Positions 3,981 through 21,019 of a stretch of DNA of 21,019 bases are shown here, in pieces. Below the pieces are notes generated by a model that had not been told where the DNA came from, ran no database searches, and saw only the letters and a program-made list of their open reading frames with translations. This DNA comes from a virus: positions 1 through 21,019 of the IMG/VR virus record IMGVR_UViG_3300014496_000008. One strand, written 5' to 3'. Positions within the stretch are counted from its first letter, which is position 1. Each line of letters begins with the position of its first letter. The position numbers and the translations under genes were made by a program.

Positions 3981-4547
3981 ATGGGTGTGATTTATTGGGG
4001 AGTAAATCATCAAACGAGAGAGTGTTATGAACTTGGGAAAGGTGCATGGCTATTGTTGACAAACATGAAAGACAGTATTGTAGATACTACACAAGTTGAG
4101 TATCTTACGAAGATGATTACTACATGTATTATATCAAATGATAGTAATTGGACAGAAGAGTCAGTAATTGATACAGAACGGCACAAGAGGATTGCTCTTG
4201 ATTTAAGAACACTGGGGAGGTGTCGAGATATTGAAATTATAAACGATACGGAAGGGTATGACCCTGAGCATATAGGATACCGGAACATTGGGGATATATG
4301 GCATGGTATTACATCTTTACGCCAAGCAAAGACGAAAGAATCTATTACTCTGAGAGATATACTCGCTAAGAATCTCAGACAAAGAATTTTGAAGGCTTAT
4401 GAAGTGACTCAGAAAAGGGAAAAGGTGAATATTAAGGTTAATAAAATATACTTTGACCAAACAGTTAATGACTGTGTTGACCAGATTGCAGATGCTTTAA
4501 TTTTTGATGCAATATCTATTACAAAGGAGGTAGGGGATGATATTTGA
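3981..4547 (+). CDS. Hypothetical protein, 188 aa, AT-rich
   Basis: The start at 3981 follows a strong AAGGAGGTAGGGG. I do not recognise the family with confidence. The N-terminus (MGVIYWGVNHQTRECYELGKG) resembles a kind of small phage protein that I have seen only as hypothetical. The rest is mixed helix and strand, and the C-terminal half (residues ~120-185) is helical and basic, then acidic. There is no transmembrane segment or signal peptide. It overlaps the next gene by 11 bases. Composition is about 28% GC in 4081-4140, far lower than the portal gene just upstream, so together with the 1046-1522 gene it looks like an insertion around the portal. Function unknown. Confidence 0.8.
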   Translation: MGVIYWGVNHQTRECYELGKGAWLLLTNMKDSIVDTTQVEYLTKMITTCIISNDSNWTEESVIDTERHKRIALDLRTLGRCRDIEIINDTEGYDPEHIGYRNIGDIWHGITSLRQAKTKESITLRDILAKNLRQRILKAYEVTQKREKVNIKVNKIYFDQTVNDCVDQIADALIFDAISITKEVGDDI

Positions 4548-4767
4548 ATTGACGAGTTTAAAGAAAGAGGGCGGGGATAAGATAACAGTGGTTATTCCTG
4601 AAACTACACCTGTGATGATTGATCGAGTGGTTAATGCAGCAGGAGAAGTTCTCGGTACAAGGTTAGTAATCAGTGGGCTTGGGACGGTTATATGTCAAGA
4701 GGCGTATGAGACGGTTAGAAGTCTGGTACAGAAATATATGGGCGTGAGGGGGGTATATGTCAATTAG
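4537..4767 (+). CDS. Small hypothetical protein, 76 aa
   Basis: The ATG at 4537 is set by AAAGGAGGTAGGGG immediately upstream, inside the end of the preceding gene (11-base overlap). The 76 residues are strand-rich: an N-terminal FELTSLKKEGGDKITVVIP, a central VVNAAGEVLGTRLVISG and a C-terminal helix (EAYETVRSLVQKYM). The layout suggests a small beta domain with one helix, but I cannot name a family. It overlaps the GroES-like gene by 11 bases, so translation of the three genes from 3981 to 5155 is probably coupled. Confidence 0.75.
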   Translation: MIFELTSLKKEGGDKITVVIPETTPVMIDRVVNAAGEVLGTRLVISGLGTVICQEAYETVRSLVQKYMGVRGVYVN

Positions 4768-5155
4768 AATGATTCACGACAAAGTCTTAATCCTCCCCGA
4801 CAAGCCAGCGGAGAAATATGGAAGCCTGTATATTCCCGAAGCATATCAGGTTACGCTCTGGAGTGGAGTGGTGGTTGGTATTGGGCCGGGAGAGTATGAT
4901 AAGTATGGGAAGTTCAAGCCCACCACGCTTCATGTTGGAGATCACGTTGTGATTGATACCGCAAAAGCCGTCCAGAACACTTTTGAGGATGTGGAGTATA
5001 TGATTACGCGGGAGAAGGAGATATTGTTCTATATTCCTGCGGGAGAGGAGATTGATTTGGCTACGTTTACGAAGAGCGATAGGCCGACAAGGAAGGAGTG
5101 GGAAGAGATTATGCATAAGACGGAGAGAGGGGAGTGTGTGAGGAGGACAGTATGA
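4757..5155 (+). CDS. GroES-like co-chaperonin (Cpn10 fold)
   Basis: A 132-residue protein whose first ~95 residues align by eye with GroES. HDKVLILPDKP corresponds to the first strand. A short GSLYIPEAY segment sits where the GroEL-binding mobile loop with its hydrophobic tripeptide should be. SGVVVGIGPGEYDKYGKF matches the conserved GxVxxVGxG strand. LHVGDHVVIDTAKA matches VKxGDxVxF, and EYMITREKEILFYI matches the final EEYLIMxExDILAxI strand. Family knowledge: T4 gp31 and related phage proteins replace GroES so that GroEL can fold the large coat protein. Position between portal and coat genes fits that role. The C-terminal ~35 residues (DLATFTKSDRPTRKEWEEIM onward) are charged and extend beyond the fold. 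The start has a G-rich Shine-Dalgarno (GAGGGGGG) and overlaps the previous gene. The fold is confident; partner and substrate are inferred. Confidence 0.87.
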   Translation: MSIRMIHDKVLILPDKPAEKYGSLYIPEAYQVTLWSGVVVGIGPGEYDKYGKFKPTTLHVGDHVVIDTAKAVQNTFEDVEYMITREKEILFYIPAGEEIDLATFTKSDRPTRKEWEEIMHKTERGECVRRTV

Positions 5156-5307
5156 GTGTTTCAGCAGATCAGAAAAAACCTCTTGACAATTCCAAACCAA
5201 TTAGCTATACAAATAACAATGTTATACATATACCACGCAATGAGATTATTGAATTACTTAAAGCTCTTGATGGCGCAAAGAGAAAGTTGCAGGAGAGGTT
5301 GAAATGA
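5152..5307 (+). CDS. Small hypothetical protein, 51 aa
   Basis: The ATG at 5152 overlaps the stop of the GroES-like gene (ATGA), and AGGAGGA (5141-5147) gives a good Shine-Dalgarno. The product begins MSVSADQKKPLDNSKP and ends in a basic amphipathic helix (NEIIELLKALDGAKRKLQER), a pattern typical of small DNA- or protein-binding phage products, though nothing more specific can be said. The coding sequence also contains a good sigma70-like promoter (5183-5211), so this stretch may have both coding and regulatory roles. Confidence 0.65.
   Translation: MSVSADQKKPLDNSKPISYTNNNVIHIPRNEIIELLKALDGAKRKLQERLK
5183..5211 (+). promoter_or_regulatory. Candidate sigma70-type promoter
   Basis: TTGACA at 5183-5188 is a perfect -35 match. 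After exactly 17 bases comes TATACA (5206-5211), a 4/6 match to the -10 box, followed by AT-rich sequence. Transcription would begin near 5218. It lies inside the 51-residue gene and upstream of the scaffold and coat genes, where extra transcription would be useful. This is a sequence match only. Confidence 0.5.
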
Positions 5308-9706: not shown

Positions 9707-10681
9707 GTGTTAGGGGATAACAAAAAGAAGTCTATAGGTCTTGCGTTGATAGCCCGTAATGAGGAAGCTGTCATCGAGAGGTGTATTGCGTCCTGTAAGG
9801 GGGTAGATCAGGTGTCGTTAGTGGATACTGGTTCTACTGACAGGACAGTGGAGATTGCAAAGTCTCTTGGAGTAGTAGTGGACGACACAACATTCAAGTG
9901 GCCGGATGCACCAGATACCACAGGGATTGATTTCTCGGCAGCCCGTAACAGGTCGGTAGATATGCTTGATACCGATTGGTTCATGTTTCTGGATGCCGAT
10001 GAGGTATTGGAGAAAGGCCACATCTGGAACATCAAGAAGCATCTACAGGACATAGGGGATGATGATATGGATGTCATCCTTATCACTATGTACGCTACGG
10101 ATGGAGATGAGTTTTGGCGTGAGAAGATTGTGAAGAAGAAACCGGAGTTAAGATTTGTTGGCCGCGTCCATGAGTCATTTGTTAATGAGAACGCGAGTGG
10201 GATTTGCGCGGATGATGTGAGAGTTAAGTATGAGCCTCGGGGAAGTTCGGAACGCAACTACGCAATTCTTCGTGAAGAGGTTCAGGCTAACGTTGACGAT
10301 ATGAGATTGCAATACCTCATGGGGCGGGAAGAGTTCTGTTTTAATAATTGTGTATCCTCAATATATTGGTTTGAGCGATATATCAGAGCATACTTACTGT
10401 CCGGCAAGCAGCACAAGATGAGATATGCGGATGCGCTATTTACGTTGGCGCTGGCACATGCCAAGATGGCAGACCCCGTTCAAGCTAAATATTGGGCGGC
10501 ACAGGGATTTGCAGCTAACCCAGACTGTCGTGAGGTCGCACAATTATTGGCTGACCTATCGTTGTTTGAAAATAACCGTCTTGCCAATAATAAGTGGCTG
10601 GAGATCGCACAGATGGCACAGAATCGTGGCATGTTTTACAAGTCACGCGGCTTCGTAAAGAAGATGGAGAGTGCCGCATGA
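9707..10681 (+). CDS. GT2 family glycosyltransferase with helical (TPR-like) C-terminus
   Basis: The GTG at 9707 is chosen because AAGGAGG (9694-9700) ends six bases upstream. Residues ~9-100 form a GT-A nucleotide-sugar-binding domain: SIGLALIARNEEAVIERCI, then VDTGSTDRT (39-47) and the metal-binding DAD at 96-98 in WFMFLDADEVL. The RNEE and DTGSTDxT motifs are typical of GT2 enzymes of the SunS/WaaE-like kind. Residues ~240-310 are pairs of helices (YADALFTLALAHAKMADPVQ, then AKYWAAQGFAANPDC) resembling tetratricopeptide repeats, common in enzymes that glycosylate proteins or lipid-linked sugars. Its stop overlaps the start of the methyltransferase (ATGA), opening a coupled four-gene sugar cassette. 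The donor sugar and acceptor cannot be read from the sequence. Confidence 0.85.
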   Translation: MLGDNKKKSIGLALIARNEEAVIERCIASCKGVDQVSLVDTGSTDRTVEIAKSLGVVVDDTTFKWPDAPDTTGIDFSAARNRSVDMLDTDWFMFLDADEVLEKGHIWNIKKHLQDIGDDDMDVILITMYATDGDEFWREKIVKKKPELRFVGRVHESFVNENASGICADDVRVKYEPRGSSERNYAILREEVQANVDDMRLQYLMGREEFCFNNCVSSIYWFERYIRAYLLSGKQHKMRYADALFTLALAHAKMADPVQAKYWAAQGFAANPDCREVAQLLADLSLFENNRLANNKWLEIAQMAQNRGMFYKSRGFVKKMESAA

Positions 10682-11319
10682 ATAAAGCCGAATACGCCGC
10701 CCAACGATTTTGGTTCGCACACAAGATGATAGACACAGGAGCAGACAAGAGGCATATGCTGGCTCCTGATTACCCGATATTGAACGAGGATAAGCAGCAT
10801 GATTATGACGCCCATTATATATTTCACACAGCATGGGCAGCACGCGTCTTGGCGAAGAGTAGGCCGATGAAGCATGTCGACATTGGATCGTTCTTATATT
10901 TCTCGACAATATTGTCAGCGTTTCTTCCAATAGATTTCTACGACTACCGTCCCATTGACGTCCCGGTTACCGGGCTGACAGTTGGACATGCAGATGTCAC
11001 CAACCTTCCTTTTGGGGATAGGAGTGTTGAGTCGTTGTCTTGTATGCACGTTGTCGAACATATAGGGCTTGGCCGCTACGGTGATCCCCTCGACCCCGAC
11101 GGTGATCTCAAAGCAATGCGAGAACTCCAACGTGTGATTGCACCGGGCGGCCAACTTCTCTTCGTAGTCCCAGTGGGGACCCCGGAGATATTCTTCAACG
11201 CACATCGAGTCTACCACCCAACGCAGATATGGGAGATATTCAAAGAGTTGCAGGGGGAGTTTATAGAGATTACCCCCGGATGTGGATGCTTCCTGTTTAG
11301 ACGGGAGGTGGGGGTATGA
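10678..11319 (+). CDS. SAM-dependent methyltransferase-like protein, DUF268 type
   Basis: A 213-residue protein starting at the ATG at 10678, which overlaps the stop of the glycosyltransferase; an in-frame ATG at 10594 lies deep inside that gene and is rejected. The fold follows class I methyltransferases: HVDIGS (67-72) in the place of the SAM-binding Gly-rich loop, DVTNLPFGDRSVESLSCMHV (106-125) as motif II/post-II, VEHIGLGRYGDPLDPDGD (126-143), and QRVIAPGGQLLFVVPVG (151-167), the characteristic strand after LxPGG. The VEHIGLGRYGD stretch is the mark of DUF268 proteins, often found beside glycosyltransferases. The glycine-rich loop is short, so SAM binding may be altered. It is coupled to gmd by ATGA. 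A sugar O- or N-methyl transfer is inferred from context. Confidence 0.8.
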   Translation: MNKAEYAAQRFWFAHKMIDTGADKRHMLAPDYPILNEDKQHDYDAHYIFHTAWAARVLAKSRPMKHVDIGSFLYFSTILSAFLPIDFYDYRPIDVPVTGLTVGHADVTNLPFGDRSVESLSCMHVVEHIGLGRYGDPLDPDGDLKAMRELQRVIAPGGQLLFVVPVGTPEIFFNAHRVYHPTQIWEIFKELQGEFIEITPGCGCFLFRREVGV

Positions 11320-12281
11320 AGGCGCTTATACTTGGAATTACTGGTCAGGATGGGAGTTACTTAACAGAGTTGCTTCTAAGCAAGGGGTATGAGGTACACG
11401 GAGTTGTTAGGCGTTCAAGCTCTCCCAATACAGGGAGGATTGACCATCTTGAGGAGAATACTAATTTGTTTCGTTATTATGGAGATGTGACGGACACGGC
11501 CAGTCTAATCGACCTGATATACAGTGTCCAGCCGGATGAGATTTATAATCTGGCTGCAATGAGCCATGTCCGCCTCTCCTTTGACATGCCTGTTTATACC
11601 GGAGATGTTACGGCGATAGGTGTGACGAGATTACTGGAAGCAGTTAGGAAGAGTGGAAGTAAGACCAGGATATATCAGGCATCCTCATCTGAGCTATTCG
11701 GTACTCATCCCCCGCCACAGAACGAGGATACACCATTCCAGCCAGCCTCCCCCTATGGTATAGCCAAACTGTATGCTCACTGGATGATGAAGAATTACAG
11801 ACAGGCATATGGGATGTTTAATGCTTGTGGCATATTGTTCAACCATGAGAGTTATCGCCGAGGTATGACGTTTGTATCGAGAAAGATTGCGAGAGGCGTG
11901 GCGGCAATCAAGGCAGGGAAGCAGGATAAACTCATTCTTGGCAACCTTGAATCCTATCGTGATTGGGGGTACGCCCCTGAGTACGTCTATGCTCAATGGC
12001 TGATGCTGCAACAGGATGAGCCGATGGATTTGGTCATAGGCACAGGAGAGAGTCATACTGTAAGAGAGTTTGCTGAGAAGGCTTTTGCAAGAGTTAACCT
12101 TGATTACAGGGATTATGTGACATTCAGCGACAGGTTCACAAGACCCGTAGAAGTAGACCATCTCCGGTGTGACGCGAGTAAAGCAAGAGACATTCTTGGA
12201 TGGCAGCCGAAAGTTATGTTTGATGAACTGGTAGAGATCATGGTTGATAGCGAGGTTACTGGAACGGAGGTGCGAAGATGA
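11316..12281 (+). CDS. gmd: GDP-mannose 4,6-dehydratase
   Basis: An extended short-chain dehydrogenase that converts GDP-mannose to GDP-4-keto-6-deoxymannose. The 321 residues include the NADP-binding loop ITGQDGSYLTELL (8-20), the GVVRRSSSPNT segment (29-39) typical of Gmd, and GDVTD (56-60). The catalytic set is Ser124/Glu126 in ASSSELFG (equivalent to Thr132/Glu134 of E. coli Gmd), Tyr147 and Lys151 in YGIAK. Substrate-binding stretches are NHESYRRG (176-183; usually NHESPRRG), GNLESYRDWGYAPEYV (209-224) and RPVEVDHLRCDASKA (276-290). It is slightly shorter than the bacterial enzyme (about 370). Start and stop both overlap neighbours by ATGA. The product is the precursor of GDP-fucose, GDP-rhamnose and related sugars; the reductase that would complete any of these is not in the window. 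Confidence 0.93.
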   Translation: MKALILGITGQDGSYLTELLLSKGYEVHGVVRRSSSPNTGRIDHLEENTNLFRYYGDVTDTASLIDLIYSVQPDEIYNLAAMSHVRLSFDMPVYTGDVTAIGVTRLLEAVRKSGSKTRIYQASSSELFGTHPPPQNEDTPFQPASPYGIAKLYAHWMMKNYRQAYGMFNACGILFNHESYRRGMTFVSRKIARGVAAIKAGKQDKLILGNLESYRDWGYAPEYVYAQWLMLQQDEPMDLVIGTGESHTVREFAEKAFARVNLDYRDYVTFSDRFTRPVEVDHLRCDASKARDILGWQPKVMFDELVEIMVDSEVTGTEVRR

Positions 12282-15200
12282 AAATTAACATCGTCTACTC
12301 CTATCTTGCCATCGCTGATAACCGTAAAGAGGAATGGGACAGGCATGAGATTATTCATTCAAGCACCCCTATTCCCGGTGCGGATATTTACGCTTATCTC
12401 AACCTTAGTAGTTTCCGTGGGTCTATGGAAAAGTCTCTGAATATGCTAATTATGGAAGAGCCAGAGGTTGTGGAACCTCAACAGTATAATATGGAATACC
12501 TCAAGTGGTTCGACCACGTGTTTACTTGCCACGATCACTTTTGTACTATCGACCCAGAACATTTCACCTACATCCCTACGTGGCGGGCAGTAGGGGATAA
12601 TCCTGTAATTACAGAATCCATGACTGAGAGGGACAAGGTATATCCGCTTGCCAATCGAAAGAAAGCTATTGTTATGATTGCTGGCAACAAGACATCACCT
12701 GTCCCTACAGAGTTATATAGTAAACGGCTCCGCGCCGCCCAATGGTGGGATGGAAATTCTAATATGCCCTTCGATGTCTTTGGCTCACCTCCTTTTGACC
12801 TCCCGAATTACAAAGGCATAGTCCCACCGGGCGGCGCTCCCCGACTCCAGAAGTTTGCCGAATATCGGTATGCGTGGTGTTTTGAGAATACCGATCACCC
12901 CGAGTATTCGAAAGGATATTGTCAGAAAATCCCTGATTGTCTGGAAGCAAGGACAGTTCCTATCTATTATGGATGTGCCAACATTGAGCAGTACATTCCT
13001 AAAGAGTGCTTAATAGACTTCAGGGATTTTAGTAACTATGAAGAATTGGATAAGTTCCTCAATAATATGAGTGATGAACGGTATTTGGAGTATGTGAAAG
13101 CTATTGATGAGTTCGTGTGTAGCGGAGGTTTGAGGAAGTATACTTGGACTGAGGTGTATAAGATTATATGTCACCAAGTGCTTGGGAAGAAGGATGACAA
13201 TATTGAGACTGATGGTGAGTTGGATGTTATTAAAAAGTATATCCATGATGGTAACGTGGTGTTTGATGTTGGGGCAGAGAGAGGGACGTGGACTAAATGG
13301 GTAAGGGAGAGTCACAGGAATTGTCATGTTTATGCATTTGAGCCGGACACCAAGAACAACAATCCTGACGCATTCCCATTTGCATTATCCGACCATGTTG
13401 GGACAGAACAATATCATGTGACATCCAAGAGTCTGCATAATATTCTAATTAAACCAGAGGCAGAAACCTCATATCCTGTCCCGATTACGACTGTGGATAG
13501 ATTCTGTGAAGAACACAAGATCAACCATATTGATTTTATGAAGATAGATGTGGAGGGCGGGGAGTTTAATGTTATCAAAGGCGCTCACCAGATGATTCGT
13601 GAGGGATTGGTAGAGAATATTCAATTTGAGTACGGTGGGACATATCCTCCGGCCAAGTTGACGTTGCAACGTGTAGTTAGGTATTTAAGGCAGTATGGGT
13701 ATGAGATATTTAAAGTGGCTCCTGATTCTGTAATCCCCGTTAACGGCTTGGTAGAGGATTATGGGTATGCTAATTATCTTGCTACAAAGGGAGGTAGGGT
13801 AATGAGTAATAAGACGGTATGCGTGGTGTTTAGTAAAGATAGGGCAATGCAGTTGGATGCTACGTTGAATAGTCTGTATAGGCATTGTAAAGATGCGGAT
13901 ACGATGGACGTTAAGGTGCTGGTGAAAGCATCTACGCCAACATATAACAAGGGGTATGAGCAATTAGTGTCGGACTACCCACAGGTAACTTGGGTTGTAG
14001 AGAAAGAGTTCCAGACCGATCTCGTCAATGCGGTTGAGGATTATGAGTATGTGATGTTCTTGACGGACGATACGGTGTTCGTAAAGGATTGTACAATAGA
14101 ATCTATACCAAGCATGTTCAATGATAATATTGGAATTTTAGGATTCTCGTTTAGATTAGGAGAAAATATTACACATTGTTATATGCTTGACATTGAACAG
14201 GAACCAACCCGTTACTGGGGAGATGGCACAGGAGATTTCGGCTATCCTCTTGAATTATCCAGTTCAATATACCGCGTCTTTGATATGCTCCCGTTATTGA
14301 AGGAGCCTATCTATAATAACCCGAATACTTTAGAGGCATGGTTAGACCACAGCAAAGGGTGGTTTAAGGAAACTAAACCTGCTTTATCATTTTATGATGT
14401 GTCAGTCGCCTTTGCTATCCCTATGAACAGAGTCCAGACCACCTACCCCTCAAATCGCAGCGGAACCGATCCTCGCTATTCCGTGGAGCACTTACAGGAG
14501 CTTTTTGATAAGGGGGTAAGGGTAAACGTCAGGGCGCTGGATAATTTCGTGCCTACAGGAGTACATCAGGAGATAGACGTGCCGTTCGTTGATAGTCAAG
14601 GCTCGGATTATCGGGAAGAGCGAGAATTAGAGGTTTCTATCCTCATGCTCAACTATAATGGTGGTACAAACGTGGCAAAATGCATAGACTCAATATTCCG
14701 CACCGTCGGGAATCACGAATATGAATTAATCATATGGGATAATTGTTCGACAGACGGCTCTCTGGAATTTCTCAAGAGTGTTGAGTCAACCAATAAGCAT
14801 GTAAGGATTATGGAGTCTTATGAGAATATCGGGGTTGAGGCACGTGCCAAACTTATGCCGTTGGCAAAGGGGAAGTATATCGTTGTTATGGATAATGATG
14901 TTGTCCTTACCCGTTATTGGCTCGACCAATGTATAATTTGGGCAAAGGCAATACCCGACCTCGGTATTATCGGGCCTCGTACCAATTACGCGTCTGGTCC
15001 CCAGTTAGTAGAAAATGCTCCTAACCACAATGGAGATATTGAGGGGCTTGAAAAGTTTGCTGAAAATTGGAGAATGTTACCGGAACATAGAGGACAGTTG
15101 TTGCAAATCCCCCGCCTACCATCATTTTTCTGGTTTATGACACGTGAAGTAATAAACAGGGTAGGGAATTTTAAAAGTTATGGTAAGTTTTCGTTTGAAG

Positions 15201-15469
15201 ATGAGTGTTTTTCTCTTCGGGTTTCGCTTGCAGGGCTTCGTGTGTTGATTGATAATGACATTTACGTCCATCATTTTGGTGGGCCACAGGGAAAAGGTGA
15301 TAAAGAGTATAATAGACTTATGGCAGAGGGATGGGTCTTGTTTAAACAGGAATGGCATCTACCATCTGATTGGGTGTACGGTAACCAAGATCATATTTCA
15401 TATATTATGGAGCATACCAAGTTCAATAAAGAAGAACATTATGTCCCGATGGAGGCGTCATTAACATGA
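12278..15469 (+). CDS. Multidomain glycan enzyme: GT10 fucosyltransferase-like, FkbM methyltransferase, and two GT-A glycosyltransferase domains
   Basis: A 1063-residue ORF beginning at an ATGA overlap with gmd. Domain order: residues ~1-300 are GT10-like, with YAWCFENTDHPEYSKGYCQK (198-217), ARTVPIYYG (224-232) and ECLIDFRDFSNYEELDKFL (243-261), which match the C-terminal donor-binding region of alpha-1,3-fucosyltransferases. Residues ~311-505 are an FkbM-type methyltransferase, with VVFDVGAERGTWT (327-339), YAFEPD and FMKIDVEGGEF (420-430). Residues ~510-770 are a GT-A-like domain with TDD at 596-598. Residues ~786-1040 are a GT2 domain, with SILMLNYNGGTNVAKCI, DNCSTDGS (821-828) and DND (872-874). 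An internal ribosome binding site and ATG sit at the FkbM/GT-A boundary (13787-13804), so a 555-residue second protein (13802-15469) may also be made. Donors and acceptor are unknown; the GT10 domain suggests GDP-fucose or a related sugar. Confidence 0.85.
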   Translation: MKINIVYSYLAIADNRKEEWDRHEIIHSSTPIPGADIYAYLNLSSFRGSMEKSLNMLIMEEPEVVEPQQYNMEYLKWFDHVFTCHDHFCTIDPEHFTYIPTWRAVGDNPVITESMTERDKVYPLANRKKAIVMIAGNKTSPVPTELYSKRLRAAQWWDGNSNMPFDVFGSPPFDLPNYKGIVPPGGAPRLQKFAEYRYAWCFENTDHPEYSKGYCQKIPDCLEARTVPIYYGCANIEQYIPKECLIDFRDFSNYEELDKFLNNMSDERYLEYVKAIDEFVCSGGLRKYTWTEVYKIICHQVLGKKDDNIETDGELDVIKKYIHDGNVVFDVGAERGTWTKWVRESHRNCHVYAFEPDTKNNNPDAFPFALSDHVGTEQYHVTSKSLHNILIKPEAETSYPVPITTVDRFCEEHKINHIDFMKIDVEGGEFNVIKGAHQMIREGLVENIQFEYGGTYPPAKLTLQRVVRYLRQYGYEIFKVAPDSVIPVNGLVEDYGYANYLATKGGRVMSNKTVCVVFSKDRAMQLDATLNSLYRHCKDADTMDVKVLVKASTPTYNKGYEQLVSDYPQVTWVVEKEFQTDLVNAVEDYEYVMFLTDDTVFVKDCTIESIPSMFNDNIGILGFSFRLGENITHCYMLDIEQEPTRYWGDGTGDFGYPLELSSSIYRVFDMLPLLKEPIYNNPNTLEAWLDHSKGWFKETKPALSFYDVSVAFAIPMNRVQTTYPSNRSGTDPRYSVEHLQELFDKGVRVNVRALDNFVPTGVHQEIDVPFVDSQGSDYREERELEVSILMLNYNGGTNVAKCIDSIFRTVGNHEYELIIWDNCSTDGSLEFLKSVESTNKHVRIMESYENIGVEARAKLMPLAKGKYIVVMDNDVVLTRYWLDQCIIWAKAIPDLGIIGPRTNYASGPQLVENAPNHNGDIEGLEKFAENWRMLPEHRGQLLQIPRLPSFFWFMTREVINRVGNFKSYGKFSFEDECFSLRVSLAGLRVLIDNDIYVHHFGGPQGKGDKEYNRLMAEGWVLFKQEWHLPSDWVYGNQDHISYIMEHTKFNKEEHYVPMEASLT
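13787..13804 (+). promoter_or_regulatory. Internal ribosome binding site and start codon inside the giant glycosyltransferase ORF
   Basis: AAGGGAGGTAGGG followed by TAATG lies in frame at residues 504-509, exactly where the FkbM domain ends and the next glycosyltransferase domain begins. It closely resembles the true translation starts at 3981 and 4537 (AAGGAGGTAGGGGATG). If one G of the GGG at 13789-13791 were absent, the upstream frame would end at TAA overlapping the ATG at 13802. Translation from here would give a 555-residue two-domain glycosyltransferase. Confidence 0.65.
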
Positions 15470-15836: not shown

Positions 15837-16196
15837 ATGGGAATGGTAGGTCAGGTAATTACGCAGGAGAAGTTTCCGCAATACCTTTATCATTCAGACA
15901 AGGAAGGGTTTAGACGTGTGGATGATTTGAAGGAAAAGACGGAAGCGGTACGAGAAGGGTGGAGCGCGGGGTATCGTCATCAGGAATACCCCAAGATGAT
16001 GTACCACGTCGTACTTGAGCCTAAAGAAGTGAAGAATGAGGAAGAGGAACTTGCCTTGATTGATGCCGGATGGGAAAAGTCCCCCGTAGCATTTTCTGAG
16101 GAGAAGGTGATCGACACCAAGATTGCTCAGAATAAGGCAGAGGCTAAAGAGTTGGCCAACAAGAAAGCGATTCTAAAGGAAGGTAAGGCAGCGTGA
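15837..16196 (+). CDS. Hypothetical protein with tandem YH...GW repeats, 119 aa
   Basis: The ATG at 15837 is chosen because GGAGG (15824-15828) lies 8 bases upstream; an in-frame ATG at 15744 lies inside the preceding gene. Two repeats are visible. Residues 13-43 have FPQYLYH, then RVDDLKEKTEAVREGWS; residues 51-82 have YPKMMYH, then VKNEEEELALIDAGWEKSP. Each consists of an aromatic-Pro-x-x-(L/M)-Tyr-His strand, a charged turn and an acidic helix ending in Gly-Trp. I know this unit from small phage structural proteins but not its function. The C-terminal ~30 residues are a Lys/Ala/Glu helix. The stop overlaps the GTG start of the gp4-like gene. Confidence 0.78.
   Translation: MGMVGQVITQEKFPQYLYHSDKEGFRRVDDLKEKTEAVREGWSAGYRHQEYPKMMYHVVLEPKEVKNEEEELALIDAGWEKSPVAFSEEKVIDTKIAQNKAEAKELANKKAILKEGKAA
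15873..16082 (+). repeat. Tandem protein repeat (two units) in the 119-aa protein
   Basis: Unit 1 (15873-15965) and unit 2 (15987-16082) share P-x-x-(L/M)-Y-H ... V-x-(D/N)-x-x-E-(E/x)...A...GW. Separation is about 38 residues from Pro to Pro. Confidence 0.7.
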
Positions 16197-16948
16197 TATT
16201 GTCAGTAGGGCAGTTGATTACGAAATCATTCAGGGATATTGGGGCGCTGAAGATGAATGAGGGGCCGACAGCAAGTGAAGTTGCTGACGCTATTCTCGAC
16301 CTCAATATCCTTTTGGATTCTCTGTCGATAGATTCCCTGATGGTGTTGGGGTCTATCATGGAAGATTTTCCATTAGTGGCCGGACAGCAAACCTATACGA
16401 TTGGGGTTGGGGGGGATTTCAACACCAGCAAACCGTCGAGGATTGATAATGCGTTTATCCAAGACGCATTGAATAACAGGTATCCGGTAGCCATTACCGA
16501 TAAAACAATATACGATACCTATGAAGATGCTCTAATATCCTCGGCTCGGCCTGATGAATTGGTGTATGATCCGGGGCCAACACAGCAGACTGTGCAGATG
16601 GGGGTCATCTACATGTATCCTATTCCAGATGCTTCCGGCCCATACACCCTCTATATTGGAGAGCAGAAACCGTTGATTGAGTTCACAAATTCAATAGACA
16701 TCGTGACATTTCAACCAGCATACTTTATGTTCTTGCGATATGCTCTCGATGAACTATTGTGGCCTCAGTATAGGGATGATGGGAAGCCGTTCCCGCCCAA
16801 GCTGGCTGGATTGAAATCTCAGGCAGAGGGAAGGATTACGGCTATGAATACAAGGCCAAGTACGGCGATTGTTGAAATAGGGAAGAAGGGACGGGGGAGT
16901 TTCGATATTTTCTCTGGCCCATATGGAGGCGACTACCGTGGTGTTTAA
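16193..16948 (+). CDS. Head-completion / tail accessory factor, P22 gp4-like
   Basis: The GTG at 16193 overlaps the previous stop (GTGA), with AAAGGAAGGTAAGG upstream. Of 251 residues, the first ~45 (LITKSFRDIGALKMNEGPTA, then SEVADAILDLNILLDSLSID) match the helical N-terminus of gp4-like proteins, where (R/K)-x-LG-x-(L/V) leads into E-x-x-x-x-L-x-x-L-N-x-(L/M)-LDS. The middle (GQQTYTIGVGGDFNT, IYMYPIPD, GPYTLYIGEQKPLI) is a strand-rich domain. The C-terminus (YFMFLRYALDELLWPQYRDD, then KLAGLKSQAEGRI) returns to helices. P22 gp4 has 166 residues; this longer version with a beta insert is common in other phages. The protein binds below the portal to close the filled head. The gp10-like gene immediately follows, as in P22. 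Confidence 0.8.
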   Translation: MILSVGQLITKSFRDIGALKMNEGPTASEVADAILDLNILLDSLSIDSLMVLGSIMEDFPLVAGQQTYTIGVGGDFNTSKPSRIDNAFIQDALNNRYPVAITDKTIYDTYEDALISSARPDELVYDPGPTQQTVQMGVIYMYPIPDASGPYTLYIGEQKPLIEFTNSIDIVTFQPAYFMFLRYALDELLWPQYRDDGKPFPPKLAGLKSQAEGRITAMNTRPSTAIVEIGKKGRGSFDIFSGPYGGDYRGV

Positions 16949-18407
16949 TTTGATGAGTCCCGGATATGTCGGACGATCATCTAACATTGACGCGTCTCGT
17001 CTTGTCAATTTCATGCTGGAGTTTAACTCTAAAGAGAGCAAGGCTCCTGCGACATTGACAGGTACTCCCGGAACATCTTTGTGGTTGTCATTAGGAGCCT
17101 CTGTTGTCCGGGGGATGAATGTATTTAACAATATACTCTATGTCGTTACAGGAAATAAGTTGTATTCGATTTCTCCGTTCAAAGTAGTATCGGCCGCCCT
17201 CGGCTCTCTTGCTACTTCTGTCGGTCCTGTGATTATGAAGAATAATGGAGTAACCGTGTCAGGAGTGGGCGGTAACCAGTTGATGATTGTAGATGGGTCT
17301 GCCGGATATATCTATAATGTTAATACAGGGGTGTTTACGTCGAGTTCCGCGTTCACAGGTGGAGGATTTCCGGCAACGGGAGCTAATAGTTTGGAGTTTA
17401 TGGACGGATACTTTGTCGTGAGTCAGCCCAATTCCATGAACACCGTGTGTTCGGATTTATACGATGGTACGAATTATCACTCTATTGCTGTCGCACCCAT
17501 CGAGGGATTCCCGGATAAGATACAGTCGATATGGCAAGTCCAAGAGCAGTTGTTCTTTATTAAAGAATATTCTACTGAGATATGGTATGACTCTGGAATA
17601 GATGCTGCTCAAGGATTCCCGTTCTCCCGTATGACAGCCGCAGTATTGGATATGGGGACACCAGCGCCGTACTCCGTAGCAAAGGGTGTGGATGGGCTAT
17701 TTATGTTAGGATCGAGAAAGATTGGGGATGGGCCTAATTTCGTAGGAGCCGTCAGTGTTGTAAGTGACACACCGAAAATCATATCTCCTCCGGCAATTAC
17801 CCTTCAGATGATGGCATGGAAACCGTGGAGTGATGTGATTGGGTATTGTTATGAGCAAGAGGGGCATAGCTTTTATGTCCTGACATCTCCGTCTGCCAAC
17901 CAGACGTTTGTATATGACGCGTCCATTGGTGATCCGATGGTTGCATGGCACGAAAGGTCTACGTATATTTCTGGCTCCATGTATAAGGTAAACCGTCATG
18001 TTAGTAATTCCTATGTTAATTTCCTCGGCAACCATCTTGTAGGGGATTTCAGGAATGGAAATATCTATACTTTAGCTTCCTCCCTATATTCCGACAACGA
18101 CACACCTCTTATATCATTCAGGACGGCAGAAATACTATCAGATAATAAAAGAGATTTGAATAGTCTCAGAATTAACCGGATTCAAGTAGATGCTGAGATG
18201 GGGGTAAATGGGAATATTGCCTTTTCCTTTTCACAAGACGGTGGACACACTTGGAGTAGTGATTATATGGAATCTCTTGGATTGACAGGAGAATATGGAA
18301 GAAGGGCAAAATGGCGAAGAGTGGGGACGTTTCCTTATGGTATGGTCGCCAGATTTGCTATCTCAGACCCATGTAAACGGGTACTTATTAATGGCTATGT
18401 CGATTAG
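16938..18407 (+). CDS. Packaged-DNA stabilisation / tail hub protein, P22 gp10-like
   Basis: About 489 residues. The GTG at 16938 is preferred because TGGAGG (16925-16929) lies 8 bases upstream; the in-frame ATG at 16923 has no ribosome binding site. The sequence follows gp10 of P22 (472 residues): an N-terminal stretch on the sequence ID-ASRLVNFMLE, then repeated beta-propeller-like strands such as NNILYVVTGNKLYSI, GYFVVSQPNSM, QEQLFFIKEYSTEIWYDSG and HSFYVLTSPSANQTFVYDAS. The C-terminus reads SFSQDGGHTWSSDYMESLG and RRAKWRRVGTFPYGMVARFA, matching the P22-family ending with W(K/R)RVG. It would bind the gp4-like ring and retain packaged DNA. It overlaps the gp4-like gene by 11 bases. Confidence 0.85.
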   Translation: MVFNLMSPGYVGRSSNIDASRLVNFMLEFNSKESKAPATLTGTPGTSLWLSLGASVVRGMNVFNNILYVVTGNKLYSISPFKVVSAALGSLATSVGPVIMKNNGVTVSGVGGNQLMIVDGSAGYIYNVNTGVFTSSSAFTGGGFPATGANSLEFMDGYFVVSQPNSMNTVCSDLYDGTNYHSIAVAPIEGFPDKIQSIWQVQEQLFFIKEYSTEIWYDSGIDAAQGFPFSRMTAAVLDMGTPAPYSVAKGVDGLFMLGSRKIGDGPNFVGAVSVVSDTPKIISPPAITLQMMAWKPWSDVIGYCYEQEGHSFYVLTSPSANQTFVYDASIGDPMVAWHERSTYISGSMYKVNRHVSNSYVNFLGNHLVGDFRNGNIYTLASSLYSDNDTPLISFRTAEILSDNKRDLNSLRINRIQVDAEMGVNGNIAFSFSQDGGHTWSSDYMESLGLTGEYGRRAKWRRVGTFPYGMVARFAISDPCKRVLINGYVD

Positions 18408-18415
18408 GAGAGTGT

Positions 18416-18634
18416 ATGGCAGAGTTTGAGCATCCAGTCTTTCATAGTTATCTGGATTATTATAATGCGGTTGGTCAGTGGACAGACCCCGCCAATCCTA
18501 ACTTTGGCACTGTAACGCCACAAAAGCCGTATGTGGGGATGTTGGCGTATGCAAATGGGGTGGCATGGAATCCGGGGGCTGGTGCAGGGTATTATAGATA
18601 TACTGTCGGGGGGACATGGACTCATGTTGGATAA
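18416..18634 (+). CDS. Small hypothetical protein, 72 aa
   Basis: The ATG at 18416 follows TAGGAGAG. The C-terminal half (GMLAYANGVAWNPGAGAGYY then RYTVGGTWTHVG) is an aromatic, glycine-rich strand repeat of a kind often seen in small phage virion proteins. The N-terminus (FEHPVFHSYLDYYNAVGQW) is helical and aromatic. There is no signal peptide. Its place between the gp10-like and later virion genes suggests a small structural protein, but this is not established. Confidence 0.7.
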   Translation: MAEFEHPVFHSYLDYYNAVGQWTDPANPNFGTVTPQKPYVGMLAYANGVAWNPGAGAGYYRYTVGGTWTHVG

Positions 18635-18649
18635 AAAGGGGATGGTAGA

Positions 18650-19681
18650 ATGATAAAGACACTTTCGTTATGCCCGACTTGTTATAAGAAGATCGAGGCA
18701 TTTATTGACATCAAGAATGGTATGGCTGTAATGACTAAGGAATGTGACGTTCATGGGCCATTTAGTGCAATCGTGGAAAGAAGCGCACAGCACGTAAGCG
18801 ATTTTTATAGAATAGAAACTCTTGGCAATAACAATACTATTATTATTCACGCCAATAACACATGTAATATGTCATGTTCATGGTGTTATTATCCGATGGG
18901 GCAGGAAACTATGTATACGTTTCCATATTATGATTCGGTATTGGGGATGTATAAGAGGCAGAGGTTTAATTTGTTATTATCCGGTGGGGAGCCTACGCTT
19001 CGTTCCGATTACTTTCAATTTATCCGTGAAGCTCACGCGAATGGTTGGCAAGCGGCGTCCATTACGAACATGATTAAACTTGCGGATGATGAGTTTTTTA
19101 GCCAAACTATGAATCCTGATTTTATTCAGAATAATTTATATAAATTCGCCATGAGTATGCAGCACCCCAAGAATTATAGTAAAGAAATCTTGGATCAGAA
19201 AATGAAGGCACTTGGGAGTATTGAGCAGAAAGGACTCAGGGCTATGTGTGTGATGTTTTCGATAACCAGTCTTGACGAATTGGAATGGATACGGGAGTTC
19301 TATAACCATACGAAGCATTGCTACATCATGTTGAGGATACGGACAATGTTTCAGAATTGGGGGAATAAGGGGAAGAGTAATCATATCTGGTTATCTGATC
19401 TTCATAAAAAGTATCTGGACGTATTTGGGGATTTGACTCCAGTACAGTGCAGACAGATAGAAGTGTCAAATATGTATTGTTTGTATTTACAGCAAAGTGA
19501 TGGGATGCATGTTTCGTTAAGCTCGTCACCAACAGTGGAGAATGTAGATTATCATCAGTGTTCCCGTCCGGTATATATGTTGGCTTTAGATGGACGATGT
19601 TATCCTGTTCCTCTTGCCCAAATTATCAATGAAGGAATTGATCTTGGGTGGAAAGACGGGTACAAATTAGGAGGTAAATAG
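18650..19681 (+). CDS. Radical SAM enzyme with N-terminal Cys/His metal-binding motif
   Basis: A 343-residue protein. The ATG at 18650 has AAAAGGGGATGG upstream. C72-x3-C76-x2-C79 in CNMSCSWC, preceded by a strand (TIIIHANNT), is the canonical 4Fe-4S site that cleaves SAM to a 5'-deoxyadenosyl radical; SGGEPT (111-116) is the SAM-binding GGE motif. Before it, C8-x2-C11 and C32-x2-H35 (CPTC ... KECDVHG) form a likely metal knuckle, as in radical SAM families that act on large or lipid-like substrates. Later Cys at 267, 277, 304 and 317 could ligate a further cluster. It sits among virion genes and is much richer in AT (about 28% GC in 19081-19140). Its substrate cannot be deduced; modifying a virion protein or glycan is speculation. 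Confidence 0.88.
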   Translation: MIKTLSLCPTCYKKIEAFIDIKNGMAVMTKECDVHGPFSAIVERSAQHVSDFYRIETLGNNNTIIIHANNTCNMSCSWCYYPMGQETMYTFPYYDSVLGMYKRQRFNLLLSGGEPTLRSDYFQFIREAHANGWQAASITNMIKLADDEFFSQTMNPDFIQNNLYKFAMSMQHPKNYSKEILDQKMKALGSIEQKGLRAMCVMFSITSLDELEWIREFYNHTKHCYIMLRIRTMFQNWGNKGKSNHIWLSDLHKKYLDVFGDLTPVQCRQIEVSNMYCLYLQQSDGMHVSLSSSPTVENVDYHQCSRPVYMLALDGRCYPVPLAQIINEGIDLGWKDGYKLGGK

Positions 19682-19682
19682 T

Positions 19683-20474
19683 ATGGTGTATATTGTGGGA
19701 GCCGCAGCAATAGGAGCAGGGGTAAGTTATTATGAAGGAGAACAAAATAGAAAGGCAGCCAGTGATGCGGCAGATGAATCTTCACAGGGGTACTTGGCTG
19801 GATCAGAAGCTTATCGTAATACCGTTTCTCCGTGGGTTAATTCTGGTACACAAGCCAATACGTTACTAAGTCAGAACGCCTTCTATTCCAACATCCCGGC
19901 ATTTAATTTCAATCTGGGACAGTCCATGAGTAACGATGGTACTGGCGGGCAGATGGTGAATGAGGCTATGGGAGAGATTTCAGCACAGCGGGCTGCTACT
20001 GGCGGATTTGGGTCGGGGAATCAGATTACCGATGTGTCCAATTACATTGCCGGAACATACGAGCCAAGTTTATATAATCAGGCGTACAGCACGTACAACA
20101 CGAATGTCAACTCTCAGTATACGCAACCCTATAATGAGTTGACGGGAATATCTAACACTGGACTGAATGCGGCTACTGGAGCAGCGATAGCAACAAATTC
20201 AGGTATTACCAATGCGGGGAATGCCCAGGCGTCTGGAACTGTGGGGGCGTCAAATGCCAGTTCTAACGGATTAACTGGAGCGAGTAATGCCGTGAATAGC
20301 GGTGTGGGGACGTATATGAATTATCTTAGTCAACAGAATCTTGCTAATGCAATCAAGGGATTGGGGAATAATAATAATCAGTATTACTACGGGTCAGGAA
20401 CCAACCAAGATTGGTATGGTGCAGATACCGGAAGCACGATCGGGACAGATTCAATGTCTATGTATACTTATTAA
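19683..20474 (+). CDS. Putative internal virion / DNA-ejection protein
   Basis: A 263-residue protein. The ATG at 19683 follows TTAGGAGGTAAATAGT. The N-terminus (VYIVGAAAIGAGVSYYEGEQ, then NRKAASDAADESSQGYLAG) is the common start of phage ejection-type proteins: a short Gly/Ala hydrophobic segment followed by an Ala/Gln/Ser helix, then YRNTVSPWVNSGTQANTLLS, resembling the YxxYxxxGxxAxxxL stretch of that group. The C-terminal half is low-complexity Asn/Gly/Ala/Ser with several NAG and GASN units and an Asn/Tyr tail. In P22-like phages, ejection proteins follow the gp4/gp10 genes, which agrees with the order here. The individual homologue cannot be named. Confidence 0.65.
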   Translation: MVYIVGAAAIGAGVSYYEGEQNRKAASDAADESSQGYLAGSEAYRNTVSPWVNSGTQANTLLSQNAFYSNIPAFNFNLGQSMSNDGTGGQMVNEAMGEISAQRAATGGFGSGNQITDVSNYIAGTYEPSLYNQAYSTYNTNVNSQYTQPYNELTGISNTGLNAATGAAIATNSGITNAGNAQASGTVGASNASSNGLTGASNAVNSGVGTYMNYLSQQNLANAIKGLGNNNNQYYYGSGTNQDWYGADTGSTIGTDSMSMYTY

Positions 20475-20489
20475 TAGAGAGAGGAATTT

Positions 20490-21019
20490 ATGAGTTGGGA
20501 ACAGTTACTTCCACAAGCCAATACTAAGATGACGACTCTTGGCGACTATTATCAGCCTAAACAGGCCGAGAATGCGATGCAGATTCTTCATGCTGCCGAT
20601 ATGCTTGACCAACGGCAAGCACGCCAACTCCAAATGAAGGTTGCTAAATTACGGTTTGATACGAGTGTTGAGCATCTGGAGGGGACAAAGGCGCTTTCCG
20701 CAATAGCCAAACCGCAACAAATCAGTCCAGACGATGTTAAGACGGCTGTAGGGTATGTACCTAAAGCACAGTATATGTCTTGGGCGTCAATGTATAAAGG
20801 CGAGGCGGCTAATCAGCAAGAGATGGCGACGACTGCGGCAACACAGGCAGCAGCAGCCTTACAAGCGGGGAGAATGCAATACATGATTCATCAGGGTATT
20901 GATCCAGAGCAAGTTGGGGTTAATTTTGGTCCCCCACCACCTCAACCTCAACCTCAACCTCAGATACCGGGTCAGGATGCCTCTACAAACGCTATGACGC
21001 CCTCTCAGACCCCTCAACC
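20490..21019 (+). CDS. Putative internal virion / ejection protein (partial, 3' end outside window)
   Basis: The ATG at 20490 follows GAGAGGAATTT. The frame stays open for 176 codons to the window edge, so the gene is truncated by the boundary. The sequence begins MSWEQLLPQANTKMTTLGDY and is mostly helical, rich in Ala, Gln, Met and Lys (LDQRQARQLQMKVAKLRF, TTAATQAAAALQAG). It then runs into a PPPPQPQPQPQ linker near nt 20930-20970. Long Gln/Ala helices and linkers fit the large ejection proteins usual at this place, and the gene directly follows another candidate of that kind. The rest of the gene would be needed to say more. Confidence 0.6.
   Translation, partial: MSWEQLLPQANTKMTTLGDYYQPKQAENAMQILHAADMLDQRQARQLQMKVAKLRFDTSVEHLEGTKALSAIAKPQQISPDDVKTAVGYVPKAQYMSWASMYKGEAANQQEMATTAATQAAAALQAGRMQYMIHQGIDPEQVGVNFGPPPPQPQPQPQIPGQDASTNAMTPSQTPQ

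Follow-up and report, generated by a model that had tools for sequence, protein, structure and literature searches.

A compact radical SAM protein with a predicted Tes-like fold at the gene 13 position of podophage ejection operons

The window analysed here, i.e., the whole stretch of 21,019 nucleotides (IMG/VR record IMGVR_UViG_3300014496_000008), carries over its 21 kb the gene set of a P22-like short-tailed phage, including terminase, portal, scaffold, capsid, adaptor and head closure genes (Table 1). The radical SAM gene is a real and intact ORF, and its placement among head and ejection genes, as described in an earlier note made from the sequence, was borne out, with the head closure gene Hc3 and a 72-aa gene upstream and a gp14-like gene downstream. 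A search with the capsid gave five sister contigs (G001-G005), which were used to follow the surrounding genes. The glycan block inside the head module consists of a GT2, a methyltransferase, a GDP-mannose dehydratase-like gene and a 1063-aa GT10/FkbM/GT2 fusion (the dehydratase and the first methyltransferase being named by reading of their sequences alone); it is kept whole or in part in G001, G002 and G004, with one GT2 left in G005. The co-chaperonin gene is kept in G002, G003, G004 and G005.

Table 1 Features of the window around the radical SAM gene, with two further features of the head module.
Feature	Position	Strand	Remarks
GroES-like co-chaperonin	4757-5155		between portal and scaffold; phrog_3188, 1e-11
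Glycan block	9707-15469		four genes
Head-tail adaptor	16193..16948	+	SU10_adaptor match below cut-off
Head closure Hc3 / packaged-DNA stabilisation protein	16923..18407	+	phrog_578, E 5.6e-82
72-aa protein	18416..18634	+	between Hc3 and radical SAM gene; 62% identical in G001/G002
Shine-Dalgarno-like AGGGG	18637..18641	+	5' of the radical SAM ATG; from sequence
Radical SAM gene	18650..19681	+	343 aa, ATG start; compact Tes-fold radical SAM protein (predicted fold)
Rubredoxin-type metal site C8-X2-C11-X20-C32-X2-H35	18671..18754	+	spacing identical to GDGT-MAS (C9X2C12X20C33X2H36)
CX3CX2C (C72, C76, C79)	18863..18886	+	radical SAM [4Fe-4S] cluster motif
GGEPT	18983..18997	+	residues 112-116
C200 codon	19247..19249	+	sole further Cys invariant in the phage family (29/29 rows)
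AGGAGG	19669..19674	+	in the last radical SAM codons, positioned for the ejection-gene start; likewise in relatives
gp14-like DNA-ejection protein	19683..20474	+	263 aa; starts 1 nt past the radical SAM stop; iterated profile E 1.1e-47
Next ejection-operon ORF	20490..21019	+	start only (contig end)

The motifs claimed in the earlier note, namely CX3CX2C, GGEPT and an N-terminal CxxC...CxxH knuckle, are all present. All 32 aligned rows (29 phage and three Magnetospirillum-type rows) keep the CX3CX2C and the C/C/C/H set without change; GGEPT is retained in the phage rows, and MGAEP is found in the Magnetospirillum-type rows. This alignment was drawn from 40 viral or prophage members, comprising the window, 36 further loci and L033, L034 and L036, from which near-copies (L017, L031, L041 and L043) and truncated members (L032, L051, L053 and L057) were omitted, the slightly truncated L025 and L021 were retained, and outside of which an 80-aa fragment (L024/L007) was left. 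In the window protein, cysteines occupy positions 8, 11, 32, 72, 76, 79, 200, 224, 267, 277, 304 and 317, and residue 35 is a histidine. The N-terminus matches the Pfam model Zn_ribbon_HMPTM (E 2.4e-12, 46.7 bits, cut-off 27), and the Radical_SAM model reaches 27.3 bits (E 4.7e-6), slightly below its cut-off of 29.5. The gene was also described as AT-rich, which holds for its overall GC content (39.2% vs 46.1% for the window), but at third codon positions (GC3) the gene, at 0.424, is level with those on either side (Hc3 0.434, 72-aa gene 0.425, ejection gene 0.420), and two other genes of the window have an even lower GC content (38.1% and 36.2%).

For the fold, an AlphaFold2 model of the window protein was built from the 32 rows (mean pLDDT 93.3). 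The closest solved structure is Tes/GDGT-MAS (7TOL), with a Z score of 30.3 and an rmsd of 3.2 over 326 of the 343 residues. GDGT-MAS was ranked first by both Foldseek and VIA-align, followed by SuiB (Z 16.8), and viperin-type folds are among the next structural matches (Z about 15). Together with the CX3CX2C motif in 32 out of 32 rows, this fold match places the protein in the radical SAM superfamily. At the level of named families, none of the NCBIfam equivalog cut-offs was reached, the best score being 81 bits against a cut-off of 490. This best-scoring named family is TrsS (NF045646), which all 32 rows match (best 1.1e-27) and to which the window protein scores 81.3 bits; the Tes model gave 68 bits (equivalog cut-off 450) and QueE 16.3 bits (cut-off 260.1). 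NrdG2 was weakly matched by 12 of the 32 rows (best 5.8e-8), and the AhbD-type model TIGR04545 by six rows only (best 8.1e-9). A viperin-type enzyme was excluded at 37.5 bits vs a cut-off of 180. The view that the protein is a radical SAM enzyme of neither NrdG nor QueE type therefore holds on NCBIfam scores and fold comparison, and the proposed profile search assigned no well-known house-keeping subfamily.

The N-terminal domain of GDGT-MAS binds a rubredoxin-type iron through C9, C12, C33 and H36, as stated in the available passages of PMC9433317, and the corresponding ligand set is complete in the phage family. In contrast, the auxiliary-site cysteines of Tes are absent from all 29 phage and all three Magnetospirillum-type rows, as judged by alignment with L037, a Tes-like protein from a Myxococcota MAG that served as reference for this comparison. 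The columns of the N-terminal auxiliary [4Fe-4S] site (C73, C77, C80 and a His in GDGT-MAS) are gapped in 29 out of 29 phage rows. At the C-terminal auxiliary [4Fe-4S] site, Cys 329, 333 and 439 of L037 are unconserved in the phage rows; their assignment as ligands is our own reading and is not listed in the available passages of PMC9433317. In addition, approximately 75 residues are dropped from the phage alignment after the match to L037 residue 345, a region that may include part of the lipid-pocket helices.

The earlier note had further counted four additional C-terminal cysteines. Four do lie within the last 80 residues, but six cysteines follow the radical SAM motif and the last four are unconserved, with C267 occurring in seven, C277 in 19, C304 in 17 and C317 in 20 of the 29 phage rows. 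Since only C200 is invariant beyond the motifs, nothing points to a C-terminal Fe-S cluster, which was thus ruled out, and a role of these cysteines as extra metal sites is not supported. C200 is replaced by Gln in the Magnetospirillum-type rows, and the SPASM Cys set typical of the AhbD-type C-terminus was not found conserved in the 29 phage rows. Most likely, a single [4Fe-4S] cluster and one single-metal site make up the metal centres of the enzyme. In Tes, the substrate carbon is reported to be held by a cluster sulfur as a cluster-bound carbon intermediate; with the auxiliary clusters missing, such an intermediate is therefore not expected in the phage enzyme.

Queried alone, the window protein found no relative in the IMG/VR viral contigs, and tblastn (E 1e-5) against 50,697 GenBank phage records gave no match and hence no cultured carrier; the Hc3 protein likewise had no match in the viral contigs. 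The family became accessible through G004, whose contig breaks off within the corresponding gene, leaving the first 80 residues of a homologue in the same position. A two-row alignment of this fragment with the window protein reached the family, and successive alignment searches yielded 9, 19 and then 36 viral loci. Homologues recur at the same place in related phages, as the earlier note had proposed to check, and 36 further IMG/VR contigs (44-66% identity) encode the protein. Complete absence from related phages, which the note would have taken as indicating a passing insertion, was not found, although the occurrence is patchy: among the five nearest capsid relatives, only G004 carries the gene, G001, G002 and G005 carry another gene in its slot, and G003 ends before the slot. 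A recent insertion was also ruled out by the GC3, which is like that of the neighbours, together with the recurrence in viral contigs. The gene is not a passing insertion.

In the phylogeny, the 30 phage rows sampled cluster as a single group (support 100/99), analysed with three Magnetospirillum-type rows, two compact bacterial rows (L035 and L085) and 13 other cellular rows. Holding all viral rows together once L035 and L085 were added was 2.31 log units worse (p-AU 0.157), so that a clade of all viral rows is uncertain with these two included, whereas the 30-row phage clade is well supported. The Magnetospirillum-type members L033, L034 and L036 are prophages that encode a 23-25% identical radical SAM protein, with MGAEP instead of GGEP, between a Phage_capsid_2 gene and tail-type genes; this distant clade includes a Magnetospirillum MAG and is the sole clue to the host, for which the earlier note had suggested an anaerobic or low-oxygen life. 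Compact relatives are encoded in the two bacterial genomes of L035 and L085, and around L085 no recognisable phage genes were found within 12 kb. The phylum of the Magnetospirillum MAG yielded a phage-level match (1.6e-106) in one of 398 genomes and six more matches between 1e-21 and 1e-29, and its family matches at E 1e-20 in three of 55 genomes, two of them distant. In the phylum of L037, none of 282 genomes matched at E 1e-30, and in that of L035 three of 294 did, all at 1e-31 to 1e-32. Absence from such searches is weak evidence because the genomes are samples.

The radical SAM gene is coupled to the gene that follows it. We compared 26 downstream genes, omitting the loci of the near-copies (L017, L031, L041 and L043), those cut before the radical SAM stop (L021, L025, L032, L051, L053 and L057) and L027, where the next gene is on the opposite strand. 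In 25 of these 26 non-duplicate loci the downstream gene starts between -20 and +4 nt from the radical SAM stop (+130 in L038), and a Shine-Dalgarno-like string, scored by a loose pattern, precedes it in 25 of 26. The L053 record, read further, has a gp14-like start at -10. The downstream protein matches the iterated ejection-protein profile in 19 of the 26 loci and phrog_598 ('DNA ejection') singly in 16; the window ejection gene has no direct PHROG match, phrog_598 included, and joins the iterated profile only. Upstream, Hc3 is found in 24 of 38 loci and different genes elsewhere, e.g., in L016-L018. The 72-aa protein is not specific to the radical SAM gene because G001 and G002 keep it without that gene, and it was dismissed as a dedicated substrate for the same reason.

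In some loci the partner is something other than an ejection protein: L040, L041, L042 and L054 (three of them, L040, L042 and L054, among the 26) encode a 122-aa protein at this position and the gene is capsid-adjacent in L033, L034 and L036. In L042, the only one of the 122-aa loci that was scanned, the pair lies between terminase-like and head-tail-adaptor-like genes. The downstream proteins of L022, L047, L048 and L055 gave no match to the ejection profile. Separately, a 20-30 residue N-terminal extension is seen in the downstream proteins of L022, L047, L048, L049, L050 and L052, ending in an aromatic residue plus C-G or M-G ahead of a hydrophobic helix. Across the ejection proteins, an aromatic residue at position 2-3 occurs in 16 of 19 rows with the radical SAM gene vs two of 13 without it; this association was noticed post hoc and is not significant when tested on three independent pairs (2.2 in the same direction, 0 in the opposite one). 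No conserved column with a residue unique to radical SAM carriers was found in the ejection protein.

Some loci differ in their arrangement. In L020 and L027, the radical SAM gene is opposite in strand to the Hc3 and adaptor genes, unlike in the other loci, and an assembly error is possible since both are short contigs from one sample. L038 contains a short ORF (L038:8993-9187) with pieces of the ejection-protein start and the radical SAM C-terminus between the radical SAM stop and the gp14-like gene, which resembles a recombination scar at the slot. Furthermore, L016 encodes a 1660-aa ejection-operon protein (L016:11016-15998) with a GGDEF diguanylate cyclase domain at residues 462-558 (PF00990, E 4.2e-9), which may be a signalling enzyme that is co-delivered with the DNA.

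The position directly 5' of the gp14-like gene is that held by gene 13 in T7, and it is occupied by other genes in the relatives. In G001 and G002 the slot contains the same GNAT-like ORF (phrog_1249, 8.1e-13) and in G005 a cupin-like ORF (phrog_12032, 4.8e-32), where the label 'cupin' is our own, based on a sub-cut-off Pfam match of the G005 ORF and on sequence inspection, and the PHROGs label is tail fibre. Among ten GenBank phage records picked from match lists, profiles assigned a GNAT (phrog_1249) to PfAn1 and a cupin-like protein to BA3, VvAW1, X14, DSL-LC05 and P26218; by eye, the cupin-like kind is also seen in FGH and in an ORF left unannotated in MW202557, and MW202483 and MW202573 have other proteins. 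The slot protein of P26218 weakly matches SET, too (E 0.015, below the Pfam cut-off). A cupin-like part followed by a SET-like domain was observed in this slot in L061:3009-3884 (Rhodoferax phage P26218) and in the unannotated ORF at L059:about 4450-5230 (MW202557). Neither a GNAT nor a cupin gave a match below E 0.1 in the 38 radical SAM loci, and both profiles do find the sister genes, the GNAT profile being built on two sequences. On the ejection-protein tree, presence of the radical SAM gene changes five times, at least three of these on supported branches. The gene 13 position is thus best read as a slot for exchangeable enzymes within the ejection operons of podophages, and its occupant in the window as a phage-specific, compact radical SAM enzyme of predicted Tes fold. 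The exchange with other kinds of enzymes suggests chemical modification, by these viruses, of some part of the particle or of the entered cell.

GNAT and SET enzymes often have proteins as substrates, so that a protein substrate is a simple common reading for the slot; being the usual neighbour, the gp14-like ejection protein comes first among the candidates. Our tentative overall reading is therefore that the slot of T7 gene 13 here holds a compact radical SAM enzyme of Tes fold, whose gene is coupled to the gp14-like one and which modifies a virion protein, with the ejection protein considered first. The enzyme would be expressed with the late genes during virion production, and its [4Fe-4S] cluster would receive electrons through or near the rubredoxin-type site. 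The cluster would then cleave SAM to give a 5'-deoxyadenosyl radical, which would abstract a hydrogen from the co-produced virion protein, with the gp14-like one considered first, and the invariant C200 could return a hydrogen. If so, the change would be of the epimerisation type and not a cross-link. This role of C200 is conjectural and drawn from the peptide epimerase EpeE, in which C223 is the hydrogen donor and for which a solved structure of the C223A mutant appears in our fold-match list. The suggestion of the earlier note that the enzyme may modify a virion component or a host molecule is now better grounded.

Other explanations were weighed against this reading. The nearest solved fold belongs to a lipid synthase whose structure contains phospholipids, and T7 gp14-like proteins act in membranes (as given in the accessible part of PMC8954989), so the enzyme could instead modify a host membrane lipid in a Tes-like manner, for instance helping the ejection complex to pass or altering the membrane of the dying cell. 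However, the C-terminal cluster is missing, whereas in Tes a cluster sulfur reportedly holds the substrate carbon, the lost residues may have formed part of the lipid pocket, and nothing ties a lipid enzyme to the gene 13 slot, which makes lipid modification unlikely. We regard a role in assembly or as a minor part of the virion, with metal sites kept purely for structure, as highly improbable: T7 gp13, at the same position, has been called an internal virion protein or 'probable scaffold protein', but neither the CX3CX2C invariant in 32 out of 32 rows nor the GGEPT of the phage rows (MGAEP in the Magnetospirillum-type rows) would be needed for a structural role.

The enzyme might also serve in metabolism or counter-defence, with a small molecule such as a cofactor, nucleotide or sugar as substrate, and be mere cargo in a permissive slot. 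Lasting coupling to virion genes despite differing upstream genes would be unexpected for such cargo, the viperin score falls far below its cut-off, and the glycan block does not constantly accompany the gene; we therefore consider this rather unlikely, even though unrelated enzymes are found in the slot, the next structural matches include viperin-type folds, sugar genes lie nearby in the window and in three relatives, and bacterial genomes carry compact relatives.

Going beyond modification of a virion protein as such, the slot enzymes in general (GNAT, cupin, cupin-plus-SET-like and radical SAM) might modify the ejection apparatus, with the radical SAM enzyme altering the N-terminal membrane segment of the gp14-like protein, which would be the first case of radical SAM chemistry in the maturation of a virion protein, and some viral 'ahbD' genes might encode virion-maturation enzymes and not heme synthases; we consider this extension doubtful. 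In the titles and abstract beginnings that were covered, a scope that leaves most subscription papers outside, no virion-linked radical SAM enzyme was found, and a paper on the N4 polymerase that mentions radical SAM is unrelated, as it concerns a HExxH motif. If the proposed modification is true, radical alteration of virion proteins across many environmental podophages would constitute a layer of particle maturation for which these titles and abstracts gave no precedent. The pattern at the slot also raises the possibility that T7 gene 13 descends from, or replaces, an enzyme acting on the ejection apparatus. Moreover, a single-cluster Tes-fold enzyme would offer a simple system for studying the role of the rubredoxin-type site in radical SAM catalysis.

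Overall, the phage enzyme resembles Tes/GDGT-MAS (MJ0619; 7TOL, 7TOM) in its predicted fold over 326 residues, the rubredoxin C-X2-C-X20-C-X2-H site and the CX3CX2C barrel, yet differs from it in length (343 aa vs 526 in the PDB chain), in sequence (approximately 20% identity) and in the absence of both auxiliary [4Fe-4S] sites. The TrsS radical SAM (seleno)protein is its best named family, yet the score is far under the TrsS cut-off. Viral 'ahbD' genes are likewise widespread viral radical SAM genes: the accessible part of PMC7288430 describes 'ahbD' as a globally conserved viral metabolic gene, and that of PMC9301287 reports 261 viral instances in the Baltic, with PF13186 and PF04055 together in three contigs only; the corresponding TIGR04545 is matched by few rows of the phage family. 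The T7 gene 13 product (PF11090) and the GNAT-like and cupin-like slot genes share the position with the radical SAM gene, but belong to unrelated families without a radical SAM motif.
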